This document shows positions 4,901-62,190 of a stretch of DNA of 64,000 nucleotides, piece after piece. This stretch comes from Bolinopsis microptera (Eukaryota; Ctenophora; Tentaculata; Lobata; Bolinopsidae): positions 5,265,246 through 5,329,245 of the forward strand of contig NC_087081.1 of assembly GCF_026151205.1 (NCBI RefSeq), written 5' to 3'. The position numbers and the translations under genes were made by a program. The notes below the pieces were generated by a model. That model was given only the letters and a program-made list of their open reading frames with translations, did no database searches and was not told the DNA's origin. How positions within the stretch are numbered: the first letter of the stretch is position 1; each line of letters starts with the position of its first letter.

Positions 4901-7900
4901 TGGTTTATTATTTGTATGCAAGACTTTCATTTTTCGTCGTACATCGCTCAATACAATTAAAAAACCGCAATTCTACGCAGATACTTGTTCTGAAACACGG
5001 CGAGATGGTTGTTTTTGTAAATAGTTTCAGCTGTATTGAAACACATGTACCATTTTGGCACTGTGTTTGGCTTAGTTTTGCACACAACTTCTTCTCATAC
5101 AGCTCCATACCTCCAGGTCTTAGAATGCCGAAAGTAAAGAAGATGACACAAGTGCTTCTCAGTGGCGAGCTGCCCGAAACCCTAGTTCAGTGTTTAGTTG
5201 ACCACGGTCTGAATTGTCCTAAATATATGAACTTGTCTTTTCAGACTCTAACGTCTTGGGCAAAACACTTAGATAAGGTCAGACACAGAGAGCTACATGC
5301 TTAGCTCATCATTTATTCAATCAATCAGTTTAATTGTAATAATATGATTTTTTAAACCGAGTTGTTATAGATTACTAAATATGACCTTCGAGGCTGATTT
5401 CGTTGTATTATTGATATTTTGTTACATTTTATTTGGCTTGTATCCGAAAAATACCCCTTTTATTTGCAGAGAGTAGAAATCAAGCAACCTAAAATGCTGA
5501 CACAAACTCCTCAAAAGTCTTCCGACATCTCCACCTCTGATGAGGTTAAAATCAAAGAGGAGCCTGTTGATTCAGTTTCGGGAACAACTAATCATCCTGT
5601 GGATCAGACTGCCAGGCCCAGTGGAAGTTGTGAATTGGACGATTCCCCGATGATATCTGTTTCAAAAGAAGTAGATACAACAAAAGATGGAAGTAAAGTC
5701 GAAACAGAAATTGACGTTTCTGAAGAGTTGCAATCAGCTTCACACGCAGCACAGGATCAAACGCCAGCTGAATCCGATGATAAAGTTTTAACCGGGAAAA
5801 GAGCTGAAAACCCAACTGAAAAGGACAATACAATTGTGAAGAAAGAAACAGAGTCAAGCAGTGGTTCCATAGCTGGAGCAGTATCAGAAGTTTTAAACGT
5901 CACTGATCTTGAATCAGAAGATACTGATAGCGTGAAAACCAAGGATGACATGGATGCCAAACCAGGTAAATAACCTCAATGTTTTGATCTTGTGGGACGA
6001 TCAGTGGCAAATGGTGAAAATTTAACCTAAAATTTTGCGCGCGCTATTATAGAAAGTTGGCTTCAGCATCGGATTTTTGGCGCGGTTCAACGTACACTCA
6101 TCTTATACTATTGTAGAATTTTAAATGTTGCCTTAATTAGCGCTTGCTTTAGCACAATCGCGGGAAATTACTGGCCAACAACTATTAACGCATGATCTTA
6201 ACGATTACGTCATATTAGAGCTTGATTTAAGATGTGTTGAACCCACGAATTTTGTTAATCGCTTACAATCAAAGCACGTGCTTTTTCACGCGTCTCAACT
6301 TTCAGGATTGGCTATCATAGAACACATTTGTATTGCACGATTTAGCTGTGTTCACTCACCAAATTATGCGTGCCCTTAAGGGCTAAATTATTTTCAATTG
6401 AACGGAAGCCATGCCTTGTGCTATTATAACTTGTATTGACACATTTCTACACATTTTTACACAGCGGAGGAAACTGAAAAGCGGGGTAGAAGATACAAAG
6501 GGTCGGTCGGTAAACGCGGAAAATCCCAGCCAAAGAAACAGGCAAAAAAGGAGGAGCAGACTTTTAACAAGTTGGATGGTGGCTTAGTCACAATACTTTG
6601 GAGAGTAAGTCGTACTAATTGATTTAGTCGCATTGATCACTTGCACACTCTCGTTATCTGGATATAATAATTGAACCCAAATCAATCTTAAAATCATTGC
6701 TCATCAGGAAGCCAGTATGGATCAAGTTTGGACGGAAGGATACTTTATACCAACTACCCACTACGGTTCTAGCTGCCCTGAGCTCTGTTATTTATGTGGC
6801 AGTTCGGGATTGGGCGGATTTATATTCTGTTCTGCTTGTGCGGAACCTTTTCACAAGTAAGCTTATATGTCTCGTTCTTAACCAGAATTGGGTGAATATT
6901 TGATAAAATTTAAAGTTTTGGTGTGTGAATTAAACCTTGGTGTGAGAATTAGTGTGGAAATAAAAGAGATATTTATTTTATTATATCATATATCTTAATT
7001 AAGTGACAGTAAGTATTATTATCATAACTACAGATTATATTATTTCAGTTAGTATCGACATGAATGTTACGATTATAGTTTATTTTTATATTATATTATA
7101 CTCAATAAAATGGTTTCAAAGCCCTTAAGGGTGGCCCTCGGGTCTTTAAAACAAAACAATAGTATTTGTACCTACTCAAAATGTTCCCTACCGTACATCA
7201 AAGGCCCCCCATTTTATTCAATCTGTATCGCAGATACTGTGTTGACATTGAGGATGACGAAGTGATATCAGCTGACTGGAAGTGTGAGCGGTGTATAATG
7301 TGCCACGTGTGCAGTAAAAACACCGAGGAAATGGTAAGACAATAGCTTGTAGTGTGAGAGGGAGGTCAATATAAGATAATATTGTGATAAAGTTATTATA
7401 GGCTAATAGCTTGTTGTTTTTTTAACAAACTCAAATACATGGACAGTATATTGTTTCCGCTCGCGCTGGTCAACCCCATGCCCAAATTGCCCCCCCCCCC
7501 CCCTTCCCCCTCTGATTTGAATATCTGCTCACCATATACTCTTATTTCCCAGTTGTTAAAGTGCTGTGAGTGCTACCACACCTACCATGCATCCTGTCTC
7601 CCTTCTGACATCTGCAAAGTTCCCAGTAAGAACGGAATTTGGAAGTGTCCAGTTTGCCTCTTCTGTAGGAAGGTTTGTGATTTTAAAGCTTATTTTGGTG
7701 ACCAAATTATGCCTCAGTATAATTGTTGAAATTTAAAAATAACCTAAATATGCAGTTTTTATTCTCTCACGAAAATTTATACGCTCAGCTAGAATTAATC
7801 GTTTGAACAGACATAAGAAAAAATACCGTTTTGACCTAATTTGTATTTGGTAGTTTTCAAGTAAGTTTTATTTAACATTTTTCATAGTGTGGAACTAAGG

Positions 7901-10900
7901 GTAACAGTGAAACAAAATGGCTGTATGATTTCTCAGTGTGTAAACCGTGTGGAAAGCTTTACAGTAAAGGTAATATATCATTTTAATACCAATTAAATTA
8001 TGTTAATTCTATTATTTAATTTGTTTAATAAAATCAATGATTGGTTGCTATCTCTAATATTAATTAAGTGTACACTGTACATTTACCCTCATGACTAATT
8101 TCATGATTTACTTAATATTGAGTCGGGGGGGGGGGGGGGGGGGGGGGCCAATGGCATAAATGGAGAAAATGGAGAATTACTCGTGGGTTTTTCCATTTTC
8201 TCCATAGAAAAAGTCTCCATTTTATGCCATTTTATGCCATTTTATGCCATTGAAAACCTGAAAAATTTAGAATTTCGAGAAAAATTATTTTTGAAAAAGA
8301 TATTTTCGGCCAATAATGAACAGGGTATCATGAAACATGGAGAAAAGTGGTTTTCAGAAAAACTTTGAAAAATGTTGACTTAGAAAATTTTCGGTCCGAG
8401 TCATTTTCGATAGTACCTCCCGTATCGAGAGCTCCCGATTCCGAGCTCTTGTTGCAAAGGGGAGGCCTGCCTTCCGGGATCGCATTATCTCGAGTCCAAA
8501 ATTGTGTATCAAGGGGAAGTTGTGGACTTCGAAAAACCGAAAAAATATTTTCGGCAAATAATGAACAGGGTAGCATGAAACGTGGAGAAAAGCGGTTTTC
8601 AGAAAAATTTGAAAAATTTTGACCGAAAAAATATTTTCGGCTTAAAATGAACAAGGTAGCATGAAACGTGGAGAAAAGTGTTTTTCAGAAAAACTTTGAA
8701 AAATTTTGACTTAGAAATTTACCCCTCGGTACACAATTTTGGACTCGAGGCTTCCCCCTGGTAATGCGTTCTCGGAAGGCAGACCTCCCCTTTGCAACAC
8801 GAGCTCGGATTCGGGAGCTCTCGATGCGAGAGGTACGTATCGAGAATGACTCGGGCCGGAAATTTTCTAAGTCAAAAAATTTTTCTTGAAAAATTGTTGT
8901 TTTCTTTTTTCAAAGTTTTTCTAAAAACCACTTTTTTCCACGTTTCATGCTACCCTCTTCATTATTAGCCGAAAATATTTTTTTGGTTTTTCGGTTTATC
9001 GAAGTCTGCACCTACCCCTCGATACACATATTTGGACTCGAGCCTTCCCCTGGTAAGTGGTAATGCGATCTCGGAAGGCAGGCCTCCCCTTTGCAGTGCG
9101 AGCTTGTTTCGACTTTCGAGGATGTAGGTCTCACTTCTCAGTGCCTATTACTCTCCCCTATTACTCACTCCTGCTGTAGCCTGTAGAAATAACTTTACAC
9201 TAGGCTTGAGTAATTATGAGTTTGCCTGAAGTGTGCCTCTACTAACCTAGTATAAGCATCTAGTAGCCTACTATGAGCTTTCCTAAGCTTGTTACGTCCC
9301 TAGTAAGCGTAAATAAACATGTTAGGATGTCCAATTTAGGTGTTAAATGGTGTTAAAGATGAAATTTCGAAGACAAAATTCATGGCATAAAATGGAGAAA
9401 ATGGAGAATTACTCATGGGTTTTTCCATTTTCTCCATAGAAAAAGTCTCCATTTTATGCCATTTTATGCCATTTTATGCCATTGGCCCCCCCCCATTGAG
9501 TCTTGAAAGATATCTGAGATATGATCAGAGGTAAACTGACCATCATTATAATTATAATATTAAATCAGTGTAAAAGAATAAGCAATCAAATATCAATAGC
9601 GTCAAATTTTTGTCAATCTCTCAAAAGTTAATTGGAAATGTTCTTGAATAAAAGCGTATTAGGAAATATGGTCCTTTCTATCTCCCAGCAAAGGTGTTTT
9701 TGCGGTAGAAACTGCGGTAGAAACTGTCTTATTATCTCCAAGCAAAGGTGTTTTTGCGGTAGAAACTGCGGTAGAAACTGTCTTATTATCTCCAAGCAAA
9801 GGTGTTTTTGCGGTAGAAACTGCGGTAGAAACTGTCTTATTATCGGGAGTGTTTCCTGGAGAAGGCAGCTCCCCTCTTCTGAACATCTTCTTATCCACAA
9901 ACTCTCTAAAGCTTCTAATGGAGAAGTAATAAACTATTGGATTACAAAAGTTAGTCAAATAAAAACTGTACATGGTAATAATTTTACCGAGCGCTTTAGC
10001 ATCATCACTCCAGGACTCGTACCACACTGTTAGTTCCACTGCCATCATAGCTGCTGTGGGTACAGTAGCAAGGGAGTAGATAGCTGCAACTGCAATGATA
10101 GCTGTAGCTCCTTTTGTTTGAGTCCCTCCTGTGAGCCTCCTAACGAGGACAATCAGCCATATTGTTGTAGTGATGATCACTGCTGCCACTAGAATCATGT
10201 AGATGATTAGAAAGGTGCCGAAGTATTCTCTGTGAGTGTAGTCAACCCAACATTGGTATGAGATGTGGTCGTAGTAGATGTTGTCCCTGTGGAGTGTGAA
10301 CCAATAAATACATAGATAAAATAAAATGCATCAGCACTATAATAATAGCGATACATACTGATAAACTCCGTACCATTATTATTGTTACCTAAAGTAAGTA
10401 TATAGTAAGGACTGTCAAAGATACAGTTAAGGATTCAAAGTTCAAACCATATACCTGTAGACCAAAGATGCAGTTAAGGATTGAAATTTCAAACCATATA
10501 CCTGTAGACCAAAGATGCAGTTAAGGATCTAAATTTCAAACCATATACCTGTAGACCAAAGATGCAGTTAAGGATCTAAATTTCAAACCATATACCTGTA
10601 GACCAAGGTGCTGATCAGACAAGATGTGACCACTAGAGCCCAGATAGCAGACACAGCTAGGAGTACGTGTTTTGTGTCACGTGTGACCACTGAAAGTGGG
10701 AACATGATGCATGTCAACTTGCTGACACACAACAGAGCCACTAGCAGTGGGGTTATGTTGTAGAAAACGTTGGTAAGGTACCTGAGGAAATTTTTTAGGA
10801 ATCAACAATCAAACTAAATGATTTGTTGCATATATACTGAGATCAAACTATCAATTTACACTTTACAGGCTGTCGTCAAACATGCAAGTAAAATCTAAAA

Positions 10901-13900
10901 TCCCTAAAAAATCTGAAAAGTCTTGAAACATACCTGTCGGCTACACAGAGGTGGTGCCCGTAGATCCAACCCTCAGCAGCAATAGCACTGATAGTGGGGA
11001 TAGTACCTGTTAGAGTGTACCCAATATCCGCTGCTGCCAGATTGTCTATCAGTCTGATTGAGTATTGGTCTAGCTTGAGAGCATTGTGTTTACGGGAGGA
11101 TATCAACACGATGGTGTTGCCGAGTAGTGACATGATGGTTGAGATGACACTCCATGTTATAAGAGCATATCGTACTGAATCAGGCACTGTGAAACTCATT
11201 GTACTGGTAAGACGTTGTAAGAAATTTAGTAAATTAAAGAAAGAAAGTGATGATATGGTCGAAAGTGTTTGTCTATTCTGTTATGTGTATTATAACTATG
11301 AACAAAAACATAATTCAAGATGTTTAAATTGTTCTGCAAAGAAATGCAACTGAACTGCATACGGGAATACAGTACGTTAAATGCCTCTGCTATAAAGCTG
11401 ATACTCTTTAAAAACGTAGGAGAATAAGAAACCTGACACCTACTCAAAAGTCAGAATCGCCTCAGAACCTTATTTGAATTCTGAATTTCCCCCGGAGCCC
11501 GGCAAATTTTGGAATTTGGACAACAAAATTCTTTAAAGGCCTAAATCAAATATGGAAAATAAGTTGATGAATCAACTTACTCACCAATAAATCGATTAAA
11601 TAACCTATTACTTAATTTATTAATTAACTAAACAATTGTCCATGTTAAGGTAACTACTGTCCCTGTGTGAAGCGGTGTATGAGGATGAAGATTACGACAC
11701 TCCCATGGTTTCGTGTGTGAGCTGTGAACACTGGGTACACATCGAGGTGATCACTTTTAAAAATAATTGGTAATTTTGTTAATAAACTAATTGATTGCCT
11801 GCAATCAATTAGTTATCGATCGTGCTAATTGATTGTTATATCGGAAGGGATTAATTAGTAAATCAATTGTAAAATAGGTAAGATTATTAACTGATCGCTC
11901 AATTAACTAACCAATGAATATAATATATTGTTAATGTTGAATTAACTGATCAAACAACTGACTCATCAAGTAATCAATCGACTAATTAATTACACAATTA
12001 ATTAATCTCGACAGTGTGATAACATATCGGAGCTAGAGTATGAAGCAATGAGTAACCTGCCTGAAGACAGGGTCGTGTACGTGTGTAGACGGTGTTGCAG
12101 GGATAACGTGTGGAGACAGGAAATGATGCAGTGCGTACAAGAAAACCTCGCTCACGTAAGTTAACTGGATAATTAATTAACGTTAATATATATAGTGTAG
12201 TAGGTTTTAATTTCAGTCAAATTTGATGATTTGATAATTTTTTTTTCAAATTTTAATACCAGCACGGTGGGTGGCTAACAATTTAACTCTAAGATACATA
12301 TTATAATATATGAAAACATTTTCCAAACCACTATCTAACGAATCACGTTACAGTGCCTGGAAGCTATGCAGGGAGTGGTAGACCACTCCAAAATACGACT
12401 GCACAAGTACACTACAGTACGTAGCATCAGAATGTTTGAGAATGATGTGTTTGGGTACATTGCGTCAACTCCTGGTGCTGTGGGGACCTTTAGAGCAGTG
12501 AGTAGAACCAGCGTTGCCCCCCCCCCCCCCCCCCAATAGCGTACAACCCCCCTCACTAGAGCAGTGAGTAGAACCAGCGTTGCCCCCCCCCCACTAGCGT
12601 ACAACCCCCCTCACTAGAACAGTGAGTAGAACCAGCGTTGCCCCCCCCCCCACTAGCGTACAACCCCCCTCACTAGAACAGTGAGTAGAACCAGACACCA
12701 GTGTTGCCCCCCCCCCCCCACTAGCGTACAACCCCCCCTCACTAGAACAGTGAGTAGAACCAGTGCTGCCTTCCCCACTAGCGTACAACCCCCCTCACTA
12801 GAGCAGTGAGTAGAACCAGCGTTGCCCCCCCCCCCCCAATTCGTACACCCCCCTCACTAGAGCAATGAGTAGAACCAGCGTTGGCCCCCCCCCCCACTAG
12901 CGTACAACCCCCCCCCCTCACTAGAGCAATGAGTAGAACCAGTGCTGCCTTCCCCACTAGCGTACAACCCCCCTCACTAGAGCAATGAGTAGAACCAGCG
13001 TTGCCCCCCCCCCCCCACTAGCGTACAACCCCCCTCACTAGAACAGTGAGTAGAACCAGCGTGACCCCCCCAGTAGCGTACAACCCCCTTCTCTCCTTCG
13101 TTTATGCCTTGGTGCAGTTATAATAGACCTGTCAACTGTCACCAAATGGGTGTATTGAATATTACTACTGTGTGTAGGATATTGCGTTATCATTTATCCT
13201 GCAAAACATTAGCATTACTATTATAATGTGAAAGGGGTGTTCAATCCATTTTCTGAACTTTTCGAACAGAGCTGTTGATACATTTTAAACATATACATTT
13301 ATTAGTTAATATAAATTATTTTCAGGTCCTTAACGAGTGTTTCCCCTGGCTATCCAAAGTAAAAAAGGGACAATTTGACGTAAAAACACCTGTCAAAACA
13401 CCCAAGAAGATTCACTGGTTCAACAAGACCTCAACACGACACAAAGAACCACAGAAGTACGAGACTTCTACTTTCGTTGAGAAGGATTGTAGAACTTGCG
13501 TCTTGTGCAATCAGAAAGGTGAGAATTCAGTTATCTGTGCGGCACCTGTTTCGATGGCCGTTAAATATTATGATAAGTGGTAGAAGAAATTTTTCTTGTT
13601 TCCCTGTTTAATCTTTCCCTTATCCCTTATCTATGAAATTCTAATTCTAGCTTTCAATTGATTAATTATTAATTACATATTATTAACTAATTAATTATCA
13701 GGTGATTTGCCGGAGAAAAGTTGTGGTAGACTGTTGGCTTGTGGAGTAGACAACTGGATTCACGTTAACTGCGCCCTGTGGAGCTCAGAGGTACGTGTCA
13801 ATCTGGTAACAGATTGTTGTTGCCTGGTAAATCCCAAATCTAACAGTGACGGGTCACATGCAATATCTCCCTGTATTATTGGTCACTAGAAATAAATTGC

Positions 13901-16900: not shown

Positions 16901-19900
16901 GATATCTTCATTAATAAGGAGGAAGTTTCAACGATTTCGAAATTTTTCCTTTAAAAACATTTCCTTGTGTTTAGGTAAGCATATCGGTACATCACTGACT
17001 GAATATGCCACTTAATACTCATTCAAGTTGGCATTAAATTCATATATAATGACATTAAACTGTCGTGGCAAAGCAGAATTTGTTGGAAATCACGAATGAG
17101 CAAAATTCTCACCTTTCGCTTGTACAAACTTTGAGCGGATGTTGCGTGCGCATCCAATATTGAATCGCCGTAAATTTTTGCATGTAATTGTTTTATATAT
17201 AGTTTGATAAGCATGCAAAGTTTCAAAGTATTTCAAGAAGAACTGTAATCACAACGGCACTCTAAAGTTGACAGAAAATGACGAAAACAGCAATTTTCAG
17301 CGATTTTAGCAATTTTCTATCAATTTGGGCGTGTCTCCACGTGTGCAACTTTTTGATTTTCAACTTTAAAACTAGCCTAATGCACAATTTATACCTATAG
17401 GAAGCAGAACTGAGCTCCACAACCCAAGGCATGGCCCAACACCAGAGAATACTAAATCGCAAAATTGACGTTTTTATAAAATAATTCTTCAAAAAAGCAC
17501 AAACTTCGATGACGAATATCTTTATGAAGGAGCAAGCTAGAAAAACTTTCCGGTAGATTTTCAGAATGCTTGAACAATTATCTAAGATAAAAATTTCCTC
17601 AGATTTTGAATAAAATTACTCCTTAATGGTTTAAAATTAATTTTAAAAGTTATTACTTTGTCAAAAATCAAGTTTTAAAAACGGTTAACTTGATGACGTC
17701 ATCAAGGGGTGTTTATGACGTCAAATAATTTTTTTATACAATGTAAACTAAAGTGTAAACAATTATTTGCAAGACCTGTGGTCGGAAATGGCTGTATCTT
17801 TTATACTTTTGAATCTATGGACACCTGAATATAGCCCACTGGCAAAGCGTCTATCCCTGAATATATATGTATGTATGTATTTGACCAAAACCCATAATCA
17901 TGGGTAGAGTGGACCGCTGCCAGTGTCTCTCTTTCCCAAACAAAAGGAAATGATATTAATTTGATTGACCGTTCTCAAATGCAAAATGATACCGAGAATG
18001 AAATCGGTCGCTCGCTTTTCCCATTCATTCACGGCTTACGAATTGTAATAAGTTTCGATTGATGAGGTACATCAATCAGATGCTGTAAAAATCTCTTTGG
18101 GTTGCGTTCGGGTCGATACCTAGTATTTCGGGGTAAGGGTGGTAGTTATTACTTATTGAATTAGCTGAAGTTTATTGAATCTTTATTGCCGAGTACAGCT
18201 GCCTTTGGGTAGTTCTTCTTAATCTATTACAATTGTAAATGAATGGGAAAAGCGAGCGACCGATTTCATTCTCGGTATCATTTTGCATTTGAGAACGGTC
18301 AATCAAATTAATATCATTTCCTTTTGTTTGGGAAAGAGAGACACTGGCAGCGGTCCACTCTACCCATGATTATGGGTTTTGGTCAAATATCATCTCTTTT
18401 TGATTATAATGTCAGGGTACTTTATAAAGTCGAAATATAAACTGATATCTTCATTAATAAGGAGGAAGTTTCAACAATTTCGAAATTTTTCCTTTAAAAA
18501 CATTTCCTTGTGTTTAGGTAAGTATATCGGTCGATCACTGACTGAATATGCCACTTAATACTCATTCAAGTTGGCATTAAATTCATTTATAATGACATTA
18601 AACTGTCGTGGCAAAGCAGAATTTGTTGGAAATCACGAATGAGCAAAATTCTCACCTTTCGCACGTGCAAACTTTGAGCGGACGTTGCGTGCGCATCCAA
18701 TATTGAATCGCCGTAAATTTTTGCATGTAATTGTTTTATATATAGCTTGATAAGCATGCAAAGTTTCAAAGTATTTCAAGAAGAGCTGTAATCACAACGG
18801 CACTCTAAAGTTTACAGAAAATGACGAAAACAGCAATTTTCAGTGATTTTAGCAATTTTCTATCAATTTGGGCGTGTCCCCACGTGTGCAACTTTTCGAT
18901 TTTTAACTTTAAAACTAGCCTAATGCACAATTTATACCTACAGGAAGCAGAACTGAGCTCCACAGCCCAAGGCATGGCCCAACACCAGAGAATACTAAAT
19001 CGCAAAATTGACGTTTTTATAAAATAATTCTTCAAAAAAGCACAAACTTCAATGACGAATATCTTTATGAAGGAGCAAGCTAGAAAAACTTTCCGGTAGA
19101 TTTTCAGAATGCTTGAACAAGCTATCTAAGGTGAAAATTTCCTCAGATTTTGAATACAATTACTTTTTAATGGTGTAAAATCATTTTTAAAAGTTATTAC
19201 TTTGTCAAAAATCAAGTTTAAAAAACGGTTAACTTGATGACGTCATCAAGGGGTGTTCATGACGTCAAATAATTTGTTTATACAATGTAAACTAAAGTGT
19301 AAACAATTATTTACAAGACCTGTGGTCGGAAATGGCTGTATCTTTTATACTTTTGAATCTATGGACAATTAAATACAGGCTACAACTGAGGGGGGGGGGG
19401 GGGGGGGGTCCAACCCGATGTCCGATATGAGGGTTGATGAGGCCAAAATCGGAATCGGAAAAATCGGAAAAATCGGAAAAATCGGAAAATTGAGAAATTT
19501 ACAGAATCGATCTCTAAATTCTAAAACCTCTCAGAAGTGATATAATTCAACCAGAACCCCTACATATAATGCTATATTGCTATGAGAAAACAAACCAATT
19601 GGACATTCCAATAGTATGTTTTATGTGTTTTTCCACTGCAGGGGCTAGTATGCTCACTACTAGTTGGAGTTGTCATGTACTCCCAGACCCGAGTGCTTTG
19701 GCCTCTTGACGTGAGATCGATTGTTTCTGCTCATTAATTTTATCCCTGTTACTTGTTATTATGTATTAGTACAACACTAGGTACCGGGTTATATTTTGTG
19801 GTCCGGTCTTTAAACATACCATAAAATCACTAGTACACTGCACCTTAAATGTATAGTCAAGTACATTTGTATCGTAACACATGCTTGGCTGGAGGATCAT

Positions 19901-22900
19901 GTTTTGTGTCCGTTCGGTACCCTGTATTTTCAAAACGGACAAAAAGTAGGGCGGACAAAAACGGACAAAAACAGACAAAACATTTAGATGTCCTCCTCCT
20001 CCTCCTCTTAAGTCTTCCTCCTCCTGAGTCCTTCTCCTCCTCAGTCCTCTTCAGTCCTCTTCCTGACTCCTCGTCCTCGTCCTCTTCCTTCTCCTCAGTC
20101 CTCCTCACCCTCCTCCTCTATCCCCTTCTCCTCCTCAGTCCTACTCCCAGTCCTCCTCCTTCTCCTTCTCCTTCTCAGTTCTCCTCCTCCTCATCCTCAT
20201 TTCTCCTCCTCATCCTCCTTCTCCTCCCCATCCGTCCTCCTCAGTCCTCCTCATAGTCGTCCTCCTCCTCCTGAGTCCTCCTCCTCATCCTCCTCCACCT
20301 CCTGAGTCCTCCTCCTGATCCTCATCCTCCTCCTCAGTCATCCTCCTCTTCCTCCTCAGTCCTCCCCCAGTCCTCCTTCTCCTTCTCCTCCTCCTCATCC
20401 TCCTCCTCCTTCTCCTCCTCATCAGTCCTCATCCTCTGTCCTCCTCATGATCGTCCTCGTCCTCATCCTCGTCCTTAGTCCTCGTCCTCCTTATCCTCCT
20501 CCTTAGTCCTCCCCCAGTCCTCCTCCTCATCCTCCTCCTTCTCCTCCTCCTGATCCTCATCCTCCTCCTCCTTCTCCTCTTTCTTCTCCTCCTAATCATT
20601 CCTCCTCCTCAGTCGTCCTCCTCCTCGTCCTTAGTCCTCGTCCTCGTCCTCCTCAGTATTCCTCCTCAGTCCTCATCAGTCCTCATCTTCATCATCCTCC
20701 TCAACAGTCCTCCTCCTCCTCAGTCTCCTCATCCTCCTCCTCAGTCCTCCTCCTCCTTCTCCTACTCCTAAGTCCTCCTCCTTCTTCTCCTCAGTCTTCC
20801 TCCTCAGTCCTCCGCATCCTTCTCCTTCTCATCAGTCCTCCTCCTCCTCAGCCTCCTCCTCCTCATTCTCCTCCTTAGTCCTCATCCTCCTCGTCAGTCC
20901 TCCTCGTCAGTCCTTCTCCTCCTCCTCAGTCCTTCTCCTCATCGTCAGTCCTCCTCCTCCTCAGTCCTCCTCAGTCCTCCTCAGTCCTCATCCTACTCCT
21001 AAGTCCTCCTCCTTCTCCTCCTCAGTCTTCCTCCTCAGTCCTCCTCCTCCTTCTTCTTCTCATCAGTCCTCCTCCTCCTCAGCCTCCTCCTCATCCTCCT
21101 CCTTAGTCCTCATCCTCCTCCTCCTCCTCAGTCCTCCTCCTCCTCCTTCTCCTCCTTTTCCTCCTTTTCCTCCTTCTCCTCCTCATCCTCAGTCCTCCTC
21201 CTGATCCTCATCATCCTCCTCAGTCCTACCCCAGTCCTCCTCCTCCTCAGTCCTCCCCAAGTCCTCCTCTTCCTCAGTCCTTCCCAAGTCCTCCTCTTCC
21301 TCAGTCCTCCCCCAGTCCTCCTTCTCCTTCTCCTCATCCTCAGTCCTCCTCTTCAGTCCTCCTCCTCCTTCGCTTTCGTCCTCCTCCTCAGTCCTCCTCG
21401 TCCTTAGTCCTCGCGTCCTCTTAGTCCTCCTCCTCCTCCCCGTCCTCAGTCCTCCTCCTCCTCCTCCTCCTCCTCCTCCTCCTCCTCCTGAGTCCTCCTC
21501 CTCTGGAGTCCTCCTCCTCCTCCTCATCAGTCCTCCTCCTCCTGATCCTCTTCAGTCCTCCTCCTAAGTCCTCCTCCTCATCCTCATCAGTCCTCCTCCT
21601 CCTTATCCTCCTAGTCCTCGTCCTTAGTCCTCGTCCTCATCCTCCTCAGTCTTCCTCAGTCTTCCTCCTCAGTCTCCTCCTCCTCATCCTTCTCCCCAAG
21701 TCCTCCTCTTCCTCAGTCCTCCCCCAGTCCTTCTTCTCCTCCTCCTCATCCTCTTCAGTCCTCTTTCTCATCTTCTTCCTCCTCAGTCCTCCTCCTCCTC
21801 AGTCCCCAGTCCTCCTCCTCCTTCTCCTCCTTCTCCTCCTTCTCCTCCTTTTCCTCCTTCTCCCCCTACTCCTAAGTCCTCCTCCTCCCCCAGTCCTCCT
21901 CCTCATCAGTCCTCCCCCAGATCTCCTTCTCCTCCTCCTCATCCTCCTCCTCCTCCTCCTCCTCCCCAGTCCTACCCAAGTCCTCCTCCTCCTCAGTCCT
22001 TCCCAAGTCCTCCTCTTCCTCAGTCCTCCCCGGCCCCAGTCCTCCTTCTCCTTCTCCTCATCCTCAGTCCTCCTCCTCAGTCCTCCTCCTCCTCCTTCTC
22101 CTTCTGATCAGTCCTCCTCCTCAGTCCTCCTCATCAGTCCTCCTCCTCCTCTTCAGTCTTCCTCCTGAGTCCTCCTCCTCGTCCTCCTCCACCTCCTGAG
22201 TCATCCTCCTCCTCCTCCTCTTTCTCCTCCTTATCCTCCTCCTCCTCAGTCCTCCTCATCCTCCTCCTCATTCTCCTCATTATCCTCCTCCTCCTCAGTC
22301 CTCCTCCTCATCCTCCTCCTCCTTCTCCTCTTCCTTCTCCTCCTAATCAGTCCTCCTCCTCAGTCGTCCTCCTCCTCTTCATTAGCCCTTGTCCTCATCC
22401 TCCTAGTCCTCGTCCTTAGTTCACGTCCTCATCCTCCTCAGTCTTCCTCCTCAGTCCTCTTCGTCCTCGTCAGTCTCCTCCTCCTCATCCTTCTCCCCAA
22501 GTTCTCCTCTTCCTCAGTCCTCCCCAGTCCTCCTCCTCATCCTCAGTCCTCCTCCTCAGTCCTCCTCGTCCTTAGTCCTCCCCCAGTCCTCCTTTTCCTC
22601 CTCCTCATCCTCAGTCCTCCTCCTCAGTCCTCGTTCTTCTCCTTTTTAACAGTCCTCCTCCTCAGTCTTCCTCCTCGTCCTCGCTCTCGTCCTCCTCCTT
22701 CTCCTTCTTCTCGTCTTCCTCCACAACAATCCTGCTCCTCTTCTTCAGTCCCCCCTCTCCTCTTCAGTCCTCCTCCTCCTCAGACCTCCTCGGTCCTCCT
22801 CTTTCTCCTCAGTCTTTCTCCTTCTCCTCCTCCTCCTCAGTTCTCATCCTCATCCCCCTCCTCCTTCTTCTCTTCCTTCTCCTCCTAATCAGTCCTCCTC

Positions 22901-25900
22901 CTAATCAGTCCTCCTCCTCAGTCGTCCTCCTCCTCGTCCTTAGTCCTCATCCTCATCGTCCTTAGTCCTCGTCCTCATCCTCCTAGTCCTCGTCCTTAGT
23001 CCTCGTCCTCATCCTCCTAGTCCTCGTCCTGGTCCTCCTCAGTCTTCCTCCTCTGTCCTCCTCAGTCCTCCTTCTCCTCAGTCCTCCTCCTCCTCCTCAT
23101 CAGTTAACACAATTTATTGTTACTAAAATGTTTTTAAACGCATTTGAGTCTGTAACATATTGACATGTTACTGTTACTGACTCAAAATGTGCTCGAGAAT
23201 ATTTTTGTTTAACAGAGTTTTACTCTCCAGTACTATGGAAAAGTTGTTACATGATAAATAAAGATTTTGATAAATAAAGTGATTTTCATCCCTTTTAATG
23301 TTATCAAAAATTGTGTAGACTATTCTTTGTATATAACTGAGGATTGGAAGTTTGAGAAAGGACCATGGTCATTAACCGTGCTACCCATTTCTGCAGATAG
23401 CCTGTTACAAATTGTGGAGACAATTTAAATCAAAAGTTACTAAAGCGTTCGCTATTTGTTACGATTGTTATTACCAACCGTACCTCTTTCAATTGTGGAC
23501 CGGGGTGGATGTTTCTGTCAAACAAGAGTTGATACGACAGTGTGTTGTTTTTTTCGGACGAAACGATTCTTGTTTGGAACAAGATACCATTTTGGGGTTC
23601 TGGGACCACCACCAATCGATTTCTTGTCATATTTAAGTACAGAAATAGCTACCTATATCGCCTAGAAACCTCAGAGGGAAGATTTAAATTTTCCCGATTT
23701 TTCCGATATGAGGGTTGATGAGGCCAAAATCGGGATCGGAATGATCGGAAATGATCGGGTTGGACCCCCCCCCCAACTGACTGGCAAAGCGTCTATCCCT
23801 GAATATATATATATATGTATATAGATATCACGACAATCTGTCGTAAAACAGGGGTTCTAGAAAACCCACTTCCCGATGTTCCTGAAACCTGAAACTTTTT
23901 TTGCAGTCGATTTGGTCAACGTCTAGACGCCCTGTAAAATTTCAGATCTCTAACTCGATTTTAACATGGTTTTTAAGGCACCTGAATATGGCGATTTTGG
24001 GTTTTTACCGAATTTCGTATAACAGTGCTGGCGAGTATTTTATGCAAATTTCTTAAAAATCTCAACATAACTATTTTTTATTCCTGTCATCTTTGACATC
24101 AAATTAGAATGTTTTGAACTAAAAATAAATCTGCTGAACGACTTCCGATGAGTCTTAATGCCTGAAAAACTCCTGCCGGAGGCGGCGGCCTTCGGCCGCC
24201 GCCTCCGGCCGGAGTGCACGCTTCGCGTGCACGAAAGAGGCTTGTAACGTGTACCAAAGGGGGTATAATAGTAAAGGGGGTATAATAGTAAAGGGGGTAC
24301 ATAGTATACCCACAATAAATGCACCGGTCGTGCTTGCCAGCACTGTGATATGTCCCGACAATCTGTCGTAAAACAGGGGTTCTAGAAAACCCATTTCCCG
24401 ATGCTCCTGAAACCTGAAACTTTTTTTGCAGTCGATTTGGTCAACGTCTAGACGCCCTGCAAAGTTTCAGATCTCTAACTCAATTTTAACATGGTTTTTA
24501 AGGCACCTGAATATGGCGATTTTGGGTTTTTTACCGAATTTCGTATAACAGTGCTGGCGAGTATTTTATGCAAATTTCTTAAAAATCTCAACATAACTAT
24601 TTTTTATTCCTGTCATCTTTGACATCAAATTAGAATGTTTTGAACTAAAAATAAATCTGCTGAACGACTTCCGATGAGTCTTAATGCCTGGAAAACTCCT
24701 GCCGGAGGCGGCGGCCTTCGGCCGCCGCCTCCGGCCGGAGTGCACGCTTCGCGTGCACAAAAGAGGCTTGTAACGTGTACCAAAGGGGGTATAATAGTAA
24801 AGGGGGTATAATAGTAAAAGGGGTATAATAGTGAAGGGGGTATAATAGTAAAGGGGGTATAATAGTAAATGGGGAACATAGTATACCCACAATAAATGCA
24901 ACGGTCGTGCTTGCCAGCACTGTGATCTAGCCGATTTTTAAAGCTAACGTAATAATCTCAGGGGACATTATAAACATTATGAGCATATATCTAGCCGATT
25001 TTTAAAGCTAACGTAATAATCTCAGGGGACACTATAAACATTATGAGCATATCTAGCCGATTTTTAAAGCTAACGTAATAATCTCAGGGGACATTATAAA
25101 CATTATGAGCATATCTAATAGACCGGTTCATTTTACCAAAAGTTGTTCAAATAATTAGAGACCCTATCTTATTAGTTGCTCTATAGGGTCAGGAACAACC
25201 AAAAAAATTTTTTGACTCTAGTGTTTCGGATAATGTCGTCATGGGCCACGCCCATTTTTATAGCGTTTCTTATACAGGTAAAATTATAGATATTATCTAA
25301 CCGATTTTTAAAGCTAACGTAATAATCTCAGGGGACATAATGAACATATCAGACGACCCTGACACATTAGTTCCTATCGGATACTCACTGGAGAGATTAT
25401 TCTGGAGCTTTAGAGACCCCTCCTATCGCTGCAGATACAGGTAGATATTATCTTGTAGGTAGATACAGGTAGATATTATCTTGTAGGTAGATACAGGTAG
25501 ATATTATCTTGTAGGTAGATACAGGTAGATGCAGGTAGATATTATCTTGTAGGTAGATGCAGGTAGATATTATCTTGTAGGTAGATGCAGGTAGATATTA
25601 TCTTGTAGGTAGATACAGGTAGATATTATCTTGTAGGTAGATACAGGTAGATATTATCTTGTAGGTAGATACATGTAGATATTATCTTGTAGGTAGATAC
25701 AGGTAGATATTATCTTGTAGGTAGATACAGGTAGATATTATCTTGTAGGTAGATACAGGTAGATATTATCTTGTAGGTAGATACAGGTAGATATTATCTT
25801 GTTGGTAGATACAGGTAGATATTATCTTGTAGGTAGATACAGGTAGATATTATATTGTAGGTAGATACAGGTAGATATTATCTTGTAGGTAGATACAGGT

Positions 25901-31900: not shown

Positions 31901-34900
31901 AGATATTCATAATTATTATAATAATCGCTAGATCCCGGTTGTTTCTAGCTGAACTTCCATTAATATTATGATAGAGGAATTCACTGAATAATATTATATC
32001 AAATAGATGGCTGACACAAAAACAAGTTGAAATCATTTCCCACATGATTTCAATGACATACAAAGTTAATCTAGTTGCCCACTATGAATAAGACTAAAAT
32101 GGGACCACAAAACTTACTTCTAACCCTGAGACTTGGCCTAGCTGTCACCGTCATCACTCTCCAAATACTGCACTCAGACGAGCAGAACACCAGTTCCACC
32201 TCTCCCTGGCTTCGTGCCAAATCCACCTCCTCACATTCTACCATTCCTGAGATGTTGACACATATCTCCTCCCCTGTTATCTCCATGGTTATCTGGAATG
32301 GCATGGACTCGGTTACTTCTCCCAGAGCGTGCCATGTAGTGTGGTCCACTTGATGGGGATTCAGCTGAAACTAAGTCGGACTGTCAACTCATCAAGAATC
32401 AAGATCTTAATGAAGTCACATCTAACCCTCTAGTGCAACTATGTTTATATGGTTTTAATGTAACATTTAGTGTAAAATTTAAAAATACCCTGGAAGTGTC
32501 AAAAAACCTGGTATTTCCTGATGTTGATCAGTAAAAGAGGTATTGTCTCCTCTGAAGAGAAGGGTAAAGATGAGGAGAGTGGGAGGAGTGGGTTATACTC
32601 ACTTCCATCTCGTATCTCTAGATATCCCTGCAATCACAAAATTCATGTATGCAGATTTTGTTGTTCTTTTAGTTTTAGCGATTCAACATACATAACAGTT
32701 ATCTTATAAAAATAGTGCAGGAGTATAGCACTTGGAGTGAAAAATCTCGCCCTTATCAAAATGAACAGAGACACAGAGACACAGAAATACAGAAACACAA
32801 AGACACAGAAACACAGAGACATAGAGACACAGAGACACATACACACAGAGACATAGAGACATAGAGACATAGAGACATAGAGACACAGATACACAGAAAC
32901 ACATAGATACATAGACACATAAACACAGAGACACAGAGACACATAGACACATGCTGACTATAATACCTGTATCCCTAAGAGTGGGTCACAAGCTCTCTCT
33001 ACCGTCTCACCAAACACTACAACCATCTTATCTAACAGATCTCGTATCTTGAAAACTCTCTTCTTTGTGAGATCGTATTCCTGGAGTCTGGCACTCTTCA
33101 GGAACCACACAACAAGTATTAACCTTAAAACAAACATTCGGCCTAGAAGGGACCCTGTACAGTGGCTGATTTCAACTAGAAGGGACCCTGTACAGTGGCT
33201 GATTTCAACTAGAAGGGACCCTGTACAGTGGCTGATTTCAACTCCAACCTTCTGTACTGAGTCAGCTTAAACTACCAACACCAACTTATGAACGAACAGA
33301 ATGATAGTTATAAAACATAGGTTCTTGACAGTATACAACTGTTTACAGGGTGACATACTGTCTCTAATAATCTCTACACAGTGGTGCATGAGGCAGCAGG
33401 GGGGGGGGGGGGTAGCAACTAACAGTATGAAACATCACCTTCATTTACTTACGGTTATTGAGACTGTTTAGAGTGGAGGTGGAGTTACTGTGATTAATTG
33501 TAACACTATGGGTTCCTCATAATCATTAGTTTACCGTGGTGAATCAATGAAACCCGGTATAATATATTAATAAACTATTCAGCCAAAACCGCGAAATTTC
33601 GGTCAAGGAGACGGCAGAAAAGCTTCTCTTCTAAAATCTCTTCAAATTCTATTCTGATGATTTTCCGTTAATCGAGGCTTTCTTTGGGAATAGAACTTTC
33701 ATTACCTCAAGGCTCAATCGTGTCTTGTGCCATCTTCAGTGACCTTGCTAAATGATCATTCAAGAAAAATTCAGTCAAAACAGTGAAATTTGGGGGGGGG
33801 GGGGGGGGAGGGAAAGTGAAGTCTGTTCTCTACAAATACAACAAAAAGGTACTTTAGAAATGTTTACAGTACTAGGGAAATGTTTCTAACCAATCGACCA
33901 TATATTATATAATACGACTTACGACTGACTTGACTTAAATTTGGGGGGGGGGGGGGGGGGGGGGGGGGGTCGCAGAAAGCTGAAATCTGAAAATGTCCTA
34001 CCGGTAGGACATTTTCAAAATTTCCATTCCGTCAAAGCTTTCTCGGACGGAAATACTGGTTCCAATACGTACAATGATATGTAGTTTTGAATGGAATGTT
34101 ACAGGTTTCAAGGTCTAGGTAATACGCAGATAGTGTATAATAATGACCCGACCTGTTATAGAGCTAAACGTACCCAGGATAAAGAACCATGTGCCGTGTG
34201 AGCACAGACTGTAAAATATTAGGATTATAACTGCTAGATTAAGATAACTAACAGTTACTCACCCTGGGCCGTATTTAAAATATTTGTTTTTGAGGTTCTT
34301 CAATAGACCAACTTTAAAAAGAAAAAGCGTATCAATCAGTAATGTTTAATATATACTCACAACAACCTGACAGGTACGAGCGGAACAAAACATCGCTGCG
34401 CGTCAAGAACAACGCAACACTGAGCTTCAGCGTGCGCGCCAAGCTGCGCTGGAGCTACAGAAACTGCGACTGCAGCAGGAGACCATGTTGAAAGTGAGGA
34501 GATATGCTCGGCTGGATCACATGTACTGTGTAGCTCACAAACACATGTTAGTATTCTGTTGTGTTGGGGGCCGGGGGGGGGGGGGGGGGGTAGATAATCG
34601 TTACTCTGTAGATGTTGTTTAATTATTTTGAAGATTCTGACTTGTGATCTAAAATCATCTTGATCAAATTAACTTTTAAACGATTATAAACTATAAATTA
34701 TTACAGGGAGACGCCTGTAGTCCACGAGTACGAGGAGCATATTGAAGCGATAAAAGTGAGACCAGGGTATTACATTGACTGTATATCAGGTAATAGCCGC
34801 CAAGATTTATAATGTTGTAATTTTATGTTCATTCCTGGTGAGCAAAAACAGTTTTTTTTGTAAAGTTTCACGTGTTACTTTTGGCTGACTAATGTAATAA

Positions 34901-37900
34901 TTTCAGCTAATGAAGGTATAAAATCACTCCTACAAAGAGTGGGCGGTGACGACTCCCTCCGATGTTGTGGAATACCTTACATCGATCCGAAAGTATGATA
35001 ACTCATTATTTGCTATTTCCCAAAAATTATGATATTAACTACTTTCATACTAGTAAACTTGATTATAAAGAAAATGATATGCGATCGCGCTGCTATTCCT
35101 TACATGTGCATATTGTCTTCAGTCTACTATACATTTCTACGTTTTAGTTTACGATTATGTCTTAAAATGTTGGATCATTAGTTAAGACAACCGTGTAACT
35201 TTCGCTTTCAATCTGCATCTGTAACTTTCACTTTCACTCTGTTACTTTCACTTTCACTCTGTTACTTTCACTTTCACTCTGTTACTTTCACTGTTCAGGT
35301 GGTGTTTATGTTTGAGGATGCTGCAGGAAAGAGGTGCATCAAAATGGCACCTCCGGTAGCACCTAAACGATCTCCAGACCACGAGTTTGATGCTGAAATG
35401 CCCACAAGAGGAAAGAAAGTGAAGTCTGTTCTCTACAAATACAACAAAAAGGTACTTAAGAAATGTTTACAGTAGGGAAATGTTTCTAACCAATCGACCA
35501 TATATTATATAATACGACTTACGACTGACTTGACTTCAACGTCCGAACAGAGATAGTTTTCTTCAAAATCTGTCTATCCAGCATGAGTTTGTTAATCTCC
35601 TTGCTGTCGTCAAGCCCCGTGTCCTTCCGAAGAATGTCAATATATGTGAGATGTGGTCTTCCCCTTATATATAATATAGATTTATTAATTCATGAATTTA
35701 TCAATTAATCGATTAATTTTTAATCCACTTTACTTTCCAGAAAAAGGTGCCCGGATCTGCTGCATTCCTACACAGGAAACCTCACAGACATGACATTAAA
35801 CACAGCCAACAGGTAACTTTCCTTAATGCGAGACGATACTTTAACAAAATAAAATTAACACAATTAATTTTACATAATTACTGTAATTAGAAAGATTATA
35901 AATAATTGTAATTTAAATTTACATGATTAAATGAAACCGACTGCTTTCAGAGTGCCTCCCTGTACAATAATAATCAGTTTAAGAGTCGAGTGATGCAACA
36001 GATAAAAGCTTACCATGTTTCATCTGTTGACCAAAAATCTGCCGTAAGTTAATTTAAAGGAATCTTAAGATTGTGAGCTTTAAATTGTGAGGGAAATAAC
36101 GGAGAATATTTGCATACTTTATACTTATTTCAACGGATATAATCATTTTCTCGACTACAGTACCCTCACCGACACATCTAGAGATGGATCAGTCCGTAGG
36201 ATACTTATCAAACCAGCTAATTCAGCTATTGCCGTTATAATGAACCAACAATAAACTCAGTTGAACTCCACAGGAGTACAACAAGAAACCAGGGAGTGTC
36301 TCATTCCACCGAGTTATCACCCAGCTACCCACCACCAAACAGATTAGTCCCAGCAAGTACAAGAGTACAGACGGACAACCTGTCCCGATCCTGCAGTACA
36401 CCGGCCAGCCCCAACATGAACATGCCGGACAACATGCCGGACAACATGCCGGACAACATGCGGCTCAGTATGGAGGACAGTCTCAGAGTGGTTCTAGTGT
36501 GCTACCGGGGAGTAATGTGAGGGTATTCAGTGGGAATTCCAAACACTTTAGAGTGCTGGGAAGTCAAAAGAAGAGTATAAGTCCCAAGGAGAAACCCATA
36601 TTTCCAAGCGTAAGTCCACGCTGACTTTTCATTTCGATTGTCCAAATCTTCCGAGTTCCTTTAGCTGTACAATGGAGGGTTGGAGGCTAGTTTTAATCTG
36701 TAATATTATTAAAAGTGAGTACCTAATTAAAATATGCAAAATGAACCAAACCCTCTTTCTTCAGGAGTCTCCCAGGCTAGTTCTGCCCTACGTGTCCGAC
36801 TTTCCTAAGTTCCCTACTAACCGGACTGTCTCCGGAGAAACACTCACCAGACCACATACCTCTCATTCCGGACAACATTCCGGACAACATTCCGGACCAC
36901 ATTCCGGACCACATTCCGGGATGATAATCTCTCCTGCTAAGCAGATGGTTCCAGCTAGTGCAGCTCTTGAAAACATAGCTAAACGAGATGGTAAGTTACC
37001 TGCTTCCTGTTCTTCAAATATTTGCCCATTATTGTACCAGCATTTTTATGACTCAGAACTGTCTTCCAACATTCCACATCTTCCCTGTATTACCATCCTC
37101 TCGCATTAACATAGCACAATTTCAGAGCATAACTTCACAGACCCAAAATCACCACACCAAGAAGACCCCACCCGGATATCTGATATCTCTTCTAGATCCA
37201 CTACACACGTCCACCCTGAGATCACAACTAATGTTCCCTCTCATGAGGGGCAGGGTGGAGAGCACTCACTATCAGTTGAACCGCTGACACAATCTGAGAA
37301 AGTTTTAGTCGGTCTTACTGCCTCCTTTAATAAATCAGAAAAACGTTCTGTGACGTCAGTGTCAAGCCAAATAACGTCATCGGGAAACCAAATGAGTTCA
37401 TCTTCAAATCACGTGACGCCATCTTCAAATCACGTGACGTCATCACCTACCCACAAAACATCATCAACAAGAATTCATGCACCATCTGTGTCCTTATTAC
37501 CAAGGCTACCTCCTTTTCCTAGTATTCTTTCTGGCATGAAAATTCCTGAAAAATCCGACATTGTTGCCGTTCCAATAGGGGACATTCTACGAAATCCTGA
37601 CTATCAATATTGGGAGAGTCTGATAAATAGACCCAAATTGGTGACATGTGACCGTCTAACCAATGGTGAGCTTGCTCGTTGTTCATGTGCGTTGTTCATG
37701 TGCGTTGTTAACTGTACACGCATGTTTGTTATCTGTATACAGGTATATCCTCAGCTGTGTAACGATATCTACGTGAATCCAGTAAATTACTTTCGATATA
37801 ATACTTTCGATATGATACCAAGTACCCACGAATCCAATATCAAATATTTGGGTTATTGCACCACCTCATCCTGATTAAATATCTCATCATATTGTTTCCT

Positions 37901-61134: not shown

Positions 61135-61224
61135 GATTCAGTGTCAACTTGTCAAGGGCCGGTTCACATCATCGCAAGCAAGTCTGTGTACTGTTATTAT
61201 GCAGTCATATGATCTGGTAACCAT

Positions 61225-62190
61225 CAGGGTCAGGGTCAGGGTCAGGGTCAGGGTCAGGGTCAGGGTCAGGGTCAGGGTCAGGGTCAGGGTCAGGGTCAGG
61301 GTCAGGGTCAGGGTCAGGGTCAGGGTCAGGGTCAGGGTCAGGGTCAGGGTCAGGGTCAGGGTCAGGGTCAGGGTCAGGGTCAGGGTCAGGGTCAGGGTCA
61401 GGGTCAGGGTCAGGGTCAGGGTCAGGGTCAGGGTCAGGGTCAGGGTCAGGGTCAGGGTCAGGGTCAGGGTCAGGGTCAGGGTCAGGGTCAGGGTCAGGGT
61501 CAGGGTCAGGGTCAGGGTCAGGGTCAGGGTCAGGGTCAGGGTCAGGGTCAGGGTCAGGGTCAGGGTCAGGGTCAGGGTCAGGGTCAGGGTCAGGGTCAGG
61601 GTCAGGGTCAGGGTCAGGGTCAGGGTCAGGGTCAGGGTCAGGGTCAGGGTCAGGGTCAGGGTCAGGGTCAGGGTCAGGGTCAGGGTCAGGGTCAGGGTCA
61701 GGGTCAGGGTCAGGGTCAGGGTCAGGGTCAGGGTCAGGGTCAGGGTCAGGGTCAGGGTCAGGGTCAGGGTCAGGGTCAGGGTCAGGGTCAGGGTCAGGGT
61801 CAGGGTCAGGGTCAGGGTCAGGGTCAGGGTCAGGGTCAGGGTCAGGGTCAGGGTCAGGGTCAGGGTCAGGGTCAGGGTCAGGGTCAGGGTCAGGGTCAGG
61901 GTCAGGGTCAGGGTCAGGGTCAGGGTCAGGGTCAGGGTCAGGGTCAGGGTCAGGGTCAGGGTCAGGGTCAGGGTCAGGGTCAGGGTCAGGGTCAGGGTCA
62001 GGGTCAGGGTCAGGGTCAGGGTCAGGGTCAGGGTCAGGGTCAGGGTCAGGGTCAGGGTCAGGGTCAGGGTCAGGGTCAGGGTCAGGGTCAGGGTCAGGGT
62101 CAGGGTCAGGGTCAGGGTCAGGGTCAGGGTCAGGGTCAGGGTCAGGGTCAGGGTCAGGGTCAGGGTCAGGGTCAGGGTCAGGGTCAGGGT
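61225..62190. repeat. Perfect TCAGGG hexamer array, 161 units
   Basis: 966 bp of uninterrupted CAGGGT units. It is a one-base variant of the animal telomere repeat TTAGGG. Both strands are open in all frames, giving artefactual Arg-Val and Leu-Thr polymers; these are not proteins. Confidence 0.97.

Follow-up and report, generated by a model that had tools for sequence, protein, structure and literature searches.

The ends of transposons are usually fixed to the base. Target duplications of 8 bp are found in the hAT, Merlin, KDZ and Novosib superfamilies, and hAT transposons are accompanied by many non-autonomous copies. The P element of Drosophila starts with CATGATG, and Galileo, also from Drosophila, has variable, repeat-rich long ends. 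Galileo is a P-superfamily transposon, and the beginning of its abstract does not mention G-run ends. In excerpts of PMC8230255 and PMC7776569, the acidic residues of the P element are given as D230, D303, D339 (of a D(2)H motif), D528 and E531, with an insertion domain at 339-528; D(2)H itself belongs to the string that serves as signature of P (PMC8230255, excerpt). The P transposase cuts with a 17-nt stagger, leaving single-stranded 3' extensions (PMC7776569, excerpt).

The window analyzed here is the whole stretch of 64,000 nucleotides (C10:5265246-5329245), and searches were extended to the genome (264.65 Mb in 232 contigs). Two elements in the window, F1 and F2 (Table 1), had been taken in a sequence-only reading for transposons that start with a G run and end with a C run. 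This proved correct: both are transposon insertions, and the homopolymers are their true ends and abut the duplications. The matching inner inverted repeats and the end module, which is in direct orientation at both ends, were also present in both. The target duplication is 8 bp in F1 (ATTGAGTC) and 7 bp in F2 (CAACTGA), or 6 bp if the first C of the latter is excluded because it also belongs to the C run. A scan of all pairs of G5+ and C5+ runs within 15 kb in the window returned F1, F2 and one further pair, which matched over 6 bp and lacked an inverted repeat; when the complement, not reversed, was used as control, no pairs were returned. No transposase was detected in the window, F2 included, by tblastn with four proteins. 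Exons resembling PHD fingers, as judged by eye, were seen at window positions 6700-7670; F1 is inserted shortly downstream of them and may lie in an intron of that gene.

Table 1. Positions of the F1 and F2 features and of one solitary G run in the window.
Feature	Position	Strand	Remarks
F1 element	8125..9494		1370 bp, non-autonomous; 26 further near-full-length copies listed
F1 left target duplication ATTGAGTC	8117..8124
F1 left terminus, G23	8125..8147	+
F1 inner terminal inverted repeat CCAATGGCATAAA	8148..8160	+	G7+CCAATGGCATAA, 279 genome occurrences
F1 subterminal module, left copy	8151..8252	+	98% over 103 bp to 9382-9484, same orientation
F1 subterminal module, right copy	9382..9484	+
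F1 right terminus, C9	9486..9494	+
F1 right target duplication ATTGAGTC	9495..9502
F2 element	19390..23774		4385 bp
F2 left target duplication CAACTGA	19383..19389
F2 left terminus, G19	19390..19408	+
F2 inner terminal inverted repeat TCCAACCCGAT	19409..19419	+	G7+TCCAACCCGAT, 202 genome occurrences
F2 subterminal module, left copy	19421..19470	+	94% over 50 bp to 23702-23751
F2 subterminal module, right copy	23702..23751	+
CCT/CAGT-rich satellite within F2	19991..23098
F2 right terminus, C10	23765..23774	+
F2 right target duplication CAACTGA	23774..23780		first C common to the C run
Solitary G27, not a transposon end	33943..33969	+	GGG in 10/10 retrieved related repeats

The reading preferred here, to which a probability of roughly 0.6 is assigned, is that F1 and F2 are non-autonomous members of a diverse group of cut-and-paste DNA transposons, that the terminal inverted repeats (TIRs) of this group start with a short G tract, that the group is served by a P-like transposase, and that the long runs are secondary.

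F1 and F2 are high-copy transposon families. With the exact patterns of seven or more Gs followed by the TIR, 279 F1-type and 202 F2-type G-run ends were found genome-wide, and the reversed patterns gave 0 in both cases. DNA searches listed 27 near-full-length F1 matches, the window copy included (90-100% identity), and 40 matches to the F2 right end (96-100% identity). By a count made by eye, 72 of 100 listed F1 end positions formed 36 inward-facing pairs within 5 kb. Flanks were compared in 21 F1 copies (the window copy and 20 of the 26 others listed, taken roughly by rank) and in 11 F2 copies (the window copy and 10 of the 12 highest of 39 others; L022 and L025 were dropped since only one end matched in the piece). 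Run letters could be included when the length of a duplication was counted. Duplications of 8-9 bp abutted both runs in 19/21 F1 copies, and 0/420 mismatched flank pairs reached 6 bp. L004 has the duplication TAATGTT with GGCTT between it and the G run, and in L005 a single additional A separates the C run from the duplication AAAATTAT. Among the F2 copies, the duplication was 8 bp in two, 7 bp in six and 6 bp in two; none was scored under the rule used in L023, because its left end reads G18-CC-G15. Of the mismatched F2 pairs, 0/110 reached 7 bp and 1/110 reached 6. The paired F2 copies other than that of the window are 2583-4764 bp in total length, and F2 minis of 97 and 91 bp carry 7-bp duplications. 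Thus the expectation that other copies, once collected, would be flanked by duplications of 7-8 bp was borne out (8-9 bp in 19/21 for F1; 8/11 for F2).

Two related families, T521 and F1A, were treated in the same way. Duplications of 8 bp or more were found in 8/9 T521 elements (control, 0/72), the ninth, L061, having only four left-flank bases, CAGC, which fit, and in 4/5 F1A elements (control, 0/20), the fifth, L069, having only two left-flank bases in the piece. Elements with only one end matched were dropped from the counts (L049 and L065 of F1A, L047 of T521, L051 and L052 of the CCAAG group), as was L067 of F1A, whose left end, G7TGGGTACC, is missed by the search pattern. Duplications measure 8 bp in F1, F1A and T521, and 6-8 bp, mostly 7, in F2; only 6-bp duplications were found in L070, L057 and L048+L058. 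The left 8-mers of 31 target sites were only slightly biased, 17 of them having T at position 3 and 15 having G at position 6, and they are not palindromic (2.26 of 8 self-matches).

The sequence-only reading had also called for a search for an autonomous copy with a transposase; coding relatives with transposase frames were found, and no intact autonomous copy was seen among the G-run elements examined. Six related groups have G- or C-run ends together with frames of a single transposase family: F1A, T521, L053, the CCAAG group, L048+L058 and L057. An F1A element of 3188 bp (C10:6430910-6434097) has G7/C7 ends, GATGCAAT on both sides and frames of 248 aa and 110 aa. F1A was found beside a MULE in L040, the MULE gene lying outside the F1A element. 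The F1A protein gave 147 genome matches, about ten of them at 95-97% over almost the full query and the remainder including distant relatives, and eleven regions, then sixteen more, were taken for study. T521 elements are about 2.1 kb in length, with G5/C5 ends and a 521-aa frame in L045 and L046. L053 (2.83 kb) is a coding relative of F1, with one end 92% identical to F1 over 396 bp and the C run lost. The TIR of the CCAAG group is G(n)CCAAGTGGATATT; L051 and L052 have one end each, and L070 has both ends and a 6-bp duplication. L058+L048 is a 10.2-kb G7/C9 pair with an F2-like start (TCCAAC), the CCT satellite, a transposase fragment and the duplication TAAATA. L057 (2624 bp) has G32/C14 ends, the duplication TTATTT and inner repeats offset by two bases. 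The frames of T521 and F1A span only the C-terminal part of the transposase, so that either family may be non-autonomous. Among the G-run elements examined, none had all three catalytic acids, and in the retrieved flanks of the two longest transposases (L044 and L055) no G/C-run pair accompanied by TIR and duplication was seen. L056 was rejected as a G-run element: its transposase has a G13 and a C12 on either side, but no TIR with duplication was found.

The longest transposase frame (T766; 766 aa, in L044) has the acids D301, D438, D486-x2-H489 and D660-x2-E663, within the strings D486-x2-H-x2-K-x2-RN and D660-x2-E-x2-F-x3-R; T521 has the last two motifs, D(2)H and D(2)E. The spacing from D-x2-H-x2-K-x2-[RV]N to D-x2-E-x2-F-x2-[IVLM]R is 189 in P, 174 in T766 and 179 in T521; in T560, which is closely related to T521 and comes from L047, it is 180. 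In shuffles of T766 both strings were found 100-260 residues apart in 0/20,000 cases, a figure that overstates the likeness because the motif pair was assembled, and the patterns chosen, after both sequences had been seen. Profile alignment of the transposase to P with hhalign was not significant (E 0.25; 44/200 shuffles as high), the best local match being the D(2)H motif, and the longest frame of the MULE locus L039 scored 19.8 vs 19.3 for the transposase. PDB searches by sequence and by profile gave no significant transposase match (T521 alone gave one row, at chance level, E 1.6). A genome search with PF21788, the P insertion domain, gave no matches, and its controls were silent too. No THAP domain was detected in the 766-aa ORF by a Pfam scan with E up to 5; at its N terminus, C-x2-C and, further on, His residues were seen by eye instead. 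D660, the motif counterpart of D528 of P, is invariant in alignment A2; the other GTP-binding residues of P (K385, K400, V401, S409, F443, D444, N447, in addition to D528) could not be reliably aligned. Viral contigs gave no match with a single transposase protein. From the motifs, which run D, D, D(2)H, D(2)E as in P, we infer that the transposase is a P-like DDE enzyme; it is named P-like, not P, because the searches revealed neither a THAP domain nor a significant alignment.

The elements resemble the P element/THAP9 (PDB 6P5A) in the 8-bp duplications of F1, F1A and T521, in having terminal and subterminal repeats, and, by motif only, in the order of the acidic residues, the last two motifs being 174-189 residues apart in T766, T521, T560 and P. 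They differ from P in that a THAP domain was not detected, that sequence and profile searches gave no significant match, that the termini of the G-run families start with G runs, and that the duplications are mostly 7 bp in F2 and 6 bp in three related groups. The transferred strands would here end in C, whereas P has a terminal guanosine (PMC7776569, excerpt).

That the transposase belongs to one of the other superfamilies with 8-bp duplications (hAT, Merlin, KDZ or Novosib), or to another described group, is doubtful. In its favour, the match to P is one of motifs, in a comparison made without a library of eukaryotic transposons. Against it, five ORFs of these elements and their relatives gave no Pfam match better than E 0.7, although hAT and MULE genes are readily found in this genome (domain searches gave 150 and 88 places, respectively), and the D(2)H motif belongs to the P signature string (PMC8230255, excerpt). 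The hAT C-terminal dimerisation domain (PF05699) and the MULE domain (PF10551) were not found in the five ORFs; the PF05699 domains of the same genome sit in other genes. No G-run/C-run pair with a duplication was found in the five hAT loci retrieved, nor in the ten hAT/MULE regions retrieved as a whole. Membership in hAT, which had been considered from the sequence alone, was accordingly not upheld for the five ORFs. Clusters of GACAATTGACCCC(CC) facing their reverse complement were seen in L042 (2124-2278/4429-4693) and in L034 (3071-3196/3503-3537), one of these cluster pairs being in a MULE locus and the other in a hAT locus.

The sequence-only reading knew of no described superfamily defined by homopolymer G/C termini. 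In the part of the freely accessible literature that was covered, no description of G-run termini was found. As the mark of a superfamily, however, homopolymer ends did not stand: T521 belongs to this transposase group, yet its ends are just G5/C5 (4-6 in 18 ends), with 8-bp duplications, and the common feature is therefore a TIR that begins with a short G tract.

The runs range from 8 to 28 (G) and 8 to 27 (C) in the 21 F1 copies, and from 7 to 23 (G) and 9 to 28 (C) in the 11 F2 copies; the two lengths within a copy are uncorrelated (r 0.10 in F1, -0.19 in F2). Of the paired ends of F1A, 6/10 are exactly 7, the others are 12, 12, 20 and 29, and none is below 7; its single ends are C24 in L049 and C7 in L065. 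All T521 ends are 4-6, fourteen of the 18 being 5. F1 copies that are more diverged from the majority sequence of the family did not have longer runs (rho 0.15, p 0.51, n 21), which counts against growth after insertion.

In the preferred reading, in which the long runs are secondary, the short G tract would be the true terminus, G5 in the T521 family and probably G7-G9 in the other families. A P-like DDE enzyme, in which an insertion would interrupt the RNase H fold after D(2)H and before the final E, would cut at the border of run and flank. The C-ended 3' strands would then be joined to the target at two sites separated by 8 (or 7) bp, and the remaining gaps filled. A tract of about seven or more Gs may be unstable, and slippage after insertion could lengthen it to 8-29. 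The part of this scheme that is seen directly in the copies is precise insertion, with a 7-8 bp duplication at the run border. Secondary lengthening is favoured because G/C runs also vary without transposition, as in the run at window position 33943 and in the C runs of a minisatellite (see below), and the lengths are consistent with it: 4-6 in T521, mostly 7 in F1A, and minima of 8 in F1 and 7 in F2.

If a P-like 17-nt stagger applies, the G tract would be recopied from the C strand at each move, and slippage during gap filling becomes the chief rival. The runs would then be made at insertion, either by a gap-filling polymerase that slips opposite a C-rich 3' overhang or by addition of untemplated Cs to the 3' ends, and each copy would have its own length. 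This is unlikely, although the stagger is known for P (PMC7776569, excerpt), F2 copies that match the window copy at 96-100% in their right parts have widely different run lengths, and in F1 the lengths do not grow with divergence and are independent on the left and right. With 6/10 F1A ends at exactly 7 and 14/18 T521 ends at 5, insertion can copy the tract faithfully, and runs that belong to no transposon vary as well (33943 and the minisatellite).

A further unlikely explanation is that the G tracts are real and their long, variable lengths are largely errors of assembly. Bolinopsis microptera was assembled with wtdbg and polished with Illumina reads, and the same source names PacBio CLR and HiFi libraries without saying, in the part seen, which served Bolinopsis (PMC10232365, excerpt). 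In addition, the + strand of the window is free of G runs of 6-13 bases, yet has nine of 14 or more. On the other side, A and T runs in the window do not exceed 9, T521 tracts are nearly constant, and runs of anything from 8 to 28 bases directly adjoin the duplications. The HiSeq X uses four-colour chemistry, and a dark-G artefact is therefore not expected. That instrument was the source of the Illumina WGS data (PMC10232365, excerpt).

G/C runs of 14 or more number 17,049 in the genome (8,364 and 8,685; 64 per Mb), and the F1 and F2 ends (481, counted from 7 Gs up) amount to <3% of this figure; other G-run families exist, and their ends are left out of the 481. On the + strand of the window there are nine G runs of 14 or more, vs about 5e-6 expected from base composition. 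No G run on this strand is 6-13 bases long; every one has either at most 5 or at least 14. Runs of A and T stay at or below 9 throughout the window, and in 57 kb of other pieces the longest runs were A 12, T 8 and C 15. The run at 33943 starts a repeat of about 100 bp (243 first-look candidates, 40 of them scored, ten copies retrieved). Between the runs at 33792 and 33943 (33809-33942) lies a 96% identical copy of window positions 35415-35539, with AAATTTG(n) on both sides. In view of this nearby copy and of the GGG found in the relatives, the 33792/33943 pair is not a transposon end; it marks a local templated insertion at a G tract or a fault of assembly.

The proposal that the solitary G runs are related ends was not sustained: F1 and F2 account for 481 ends vs 17,049 runs, none of the nine unpaired window runs of 10 or more outside the minisatellite is followed, by eye, by a TIR of the known families, and the one run that was traced (33943) is GGG in its relatives. 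That most G runs of the genome, the solitary ones of the window included, are solo remnants of such transposons is very improbable. Long G runs are far commoner than composition predicts and families beyond F1 and F2 also have G-run ends, but the 279 and 202 F1 and F2 ends (7 or more Gs) face 17,049 runs of 14 or more, and the traced run sits in an unrelated repeat with GGG in 10/10 retrieved copies.

Other features of the runs were recorded in passing. A 59-bp minisatellite occupies window positions 12491-13088, and its C runs differ between units (10-18 among those listed). A CC interruption recurs beside long G runs, as GGGGGCC or G18CC before window positions 14145 and 34573 and in L023 at 1837-1871. 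A perfect array of 161 copies of TCAGGG, a telomere-like hexamer, lies at 61224-62190, well inside the contig. G runs were also considered as the ctenophore loop-anchor motif and rejected, as that motif is GC-rich with two CpGs and is not a G run (PMC12221973, excerpt).

A bolder view, put forward tentatively and doubtful at present, is that the group forms a separate, undescribed ctenophore DDE superfamily, distant to P, in which TIRs must start with a G tract, any tract length is tolerated, and the cut is made at the border of tract and flank. If this were true, the ends of these transposons would be hypermutable mononucleotide repeats, and the C-ended transferred strand could interact with a guanine nucleotide cofactor. 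A freely varying homopolymer as the outermost bases raises the question of how the enzyme finds the end, and the group, which extends from a near-constant G5 through G7 to 8-29, offers a natural series for testing end recognition. If ctenophores have a P-like transposase that lacks a THAP domain, this would be relevant to how the P superfamily and THAP proteins arose, and the repeat annotation of ctenophore genomes would gain several families.
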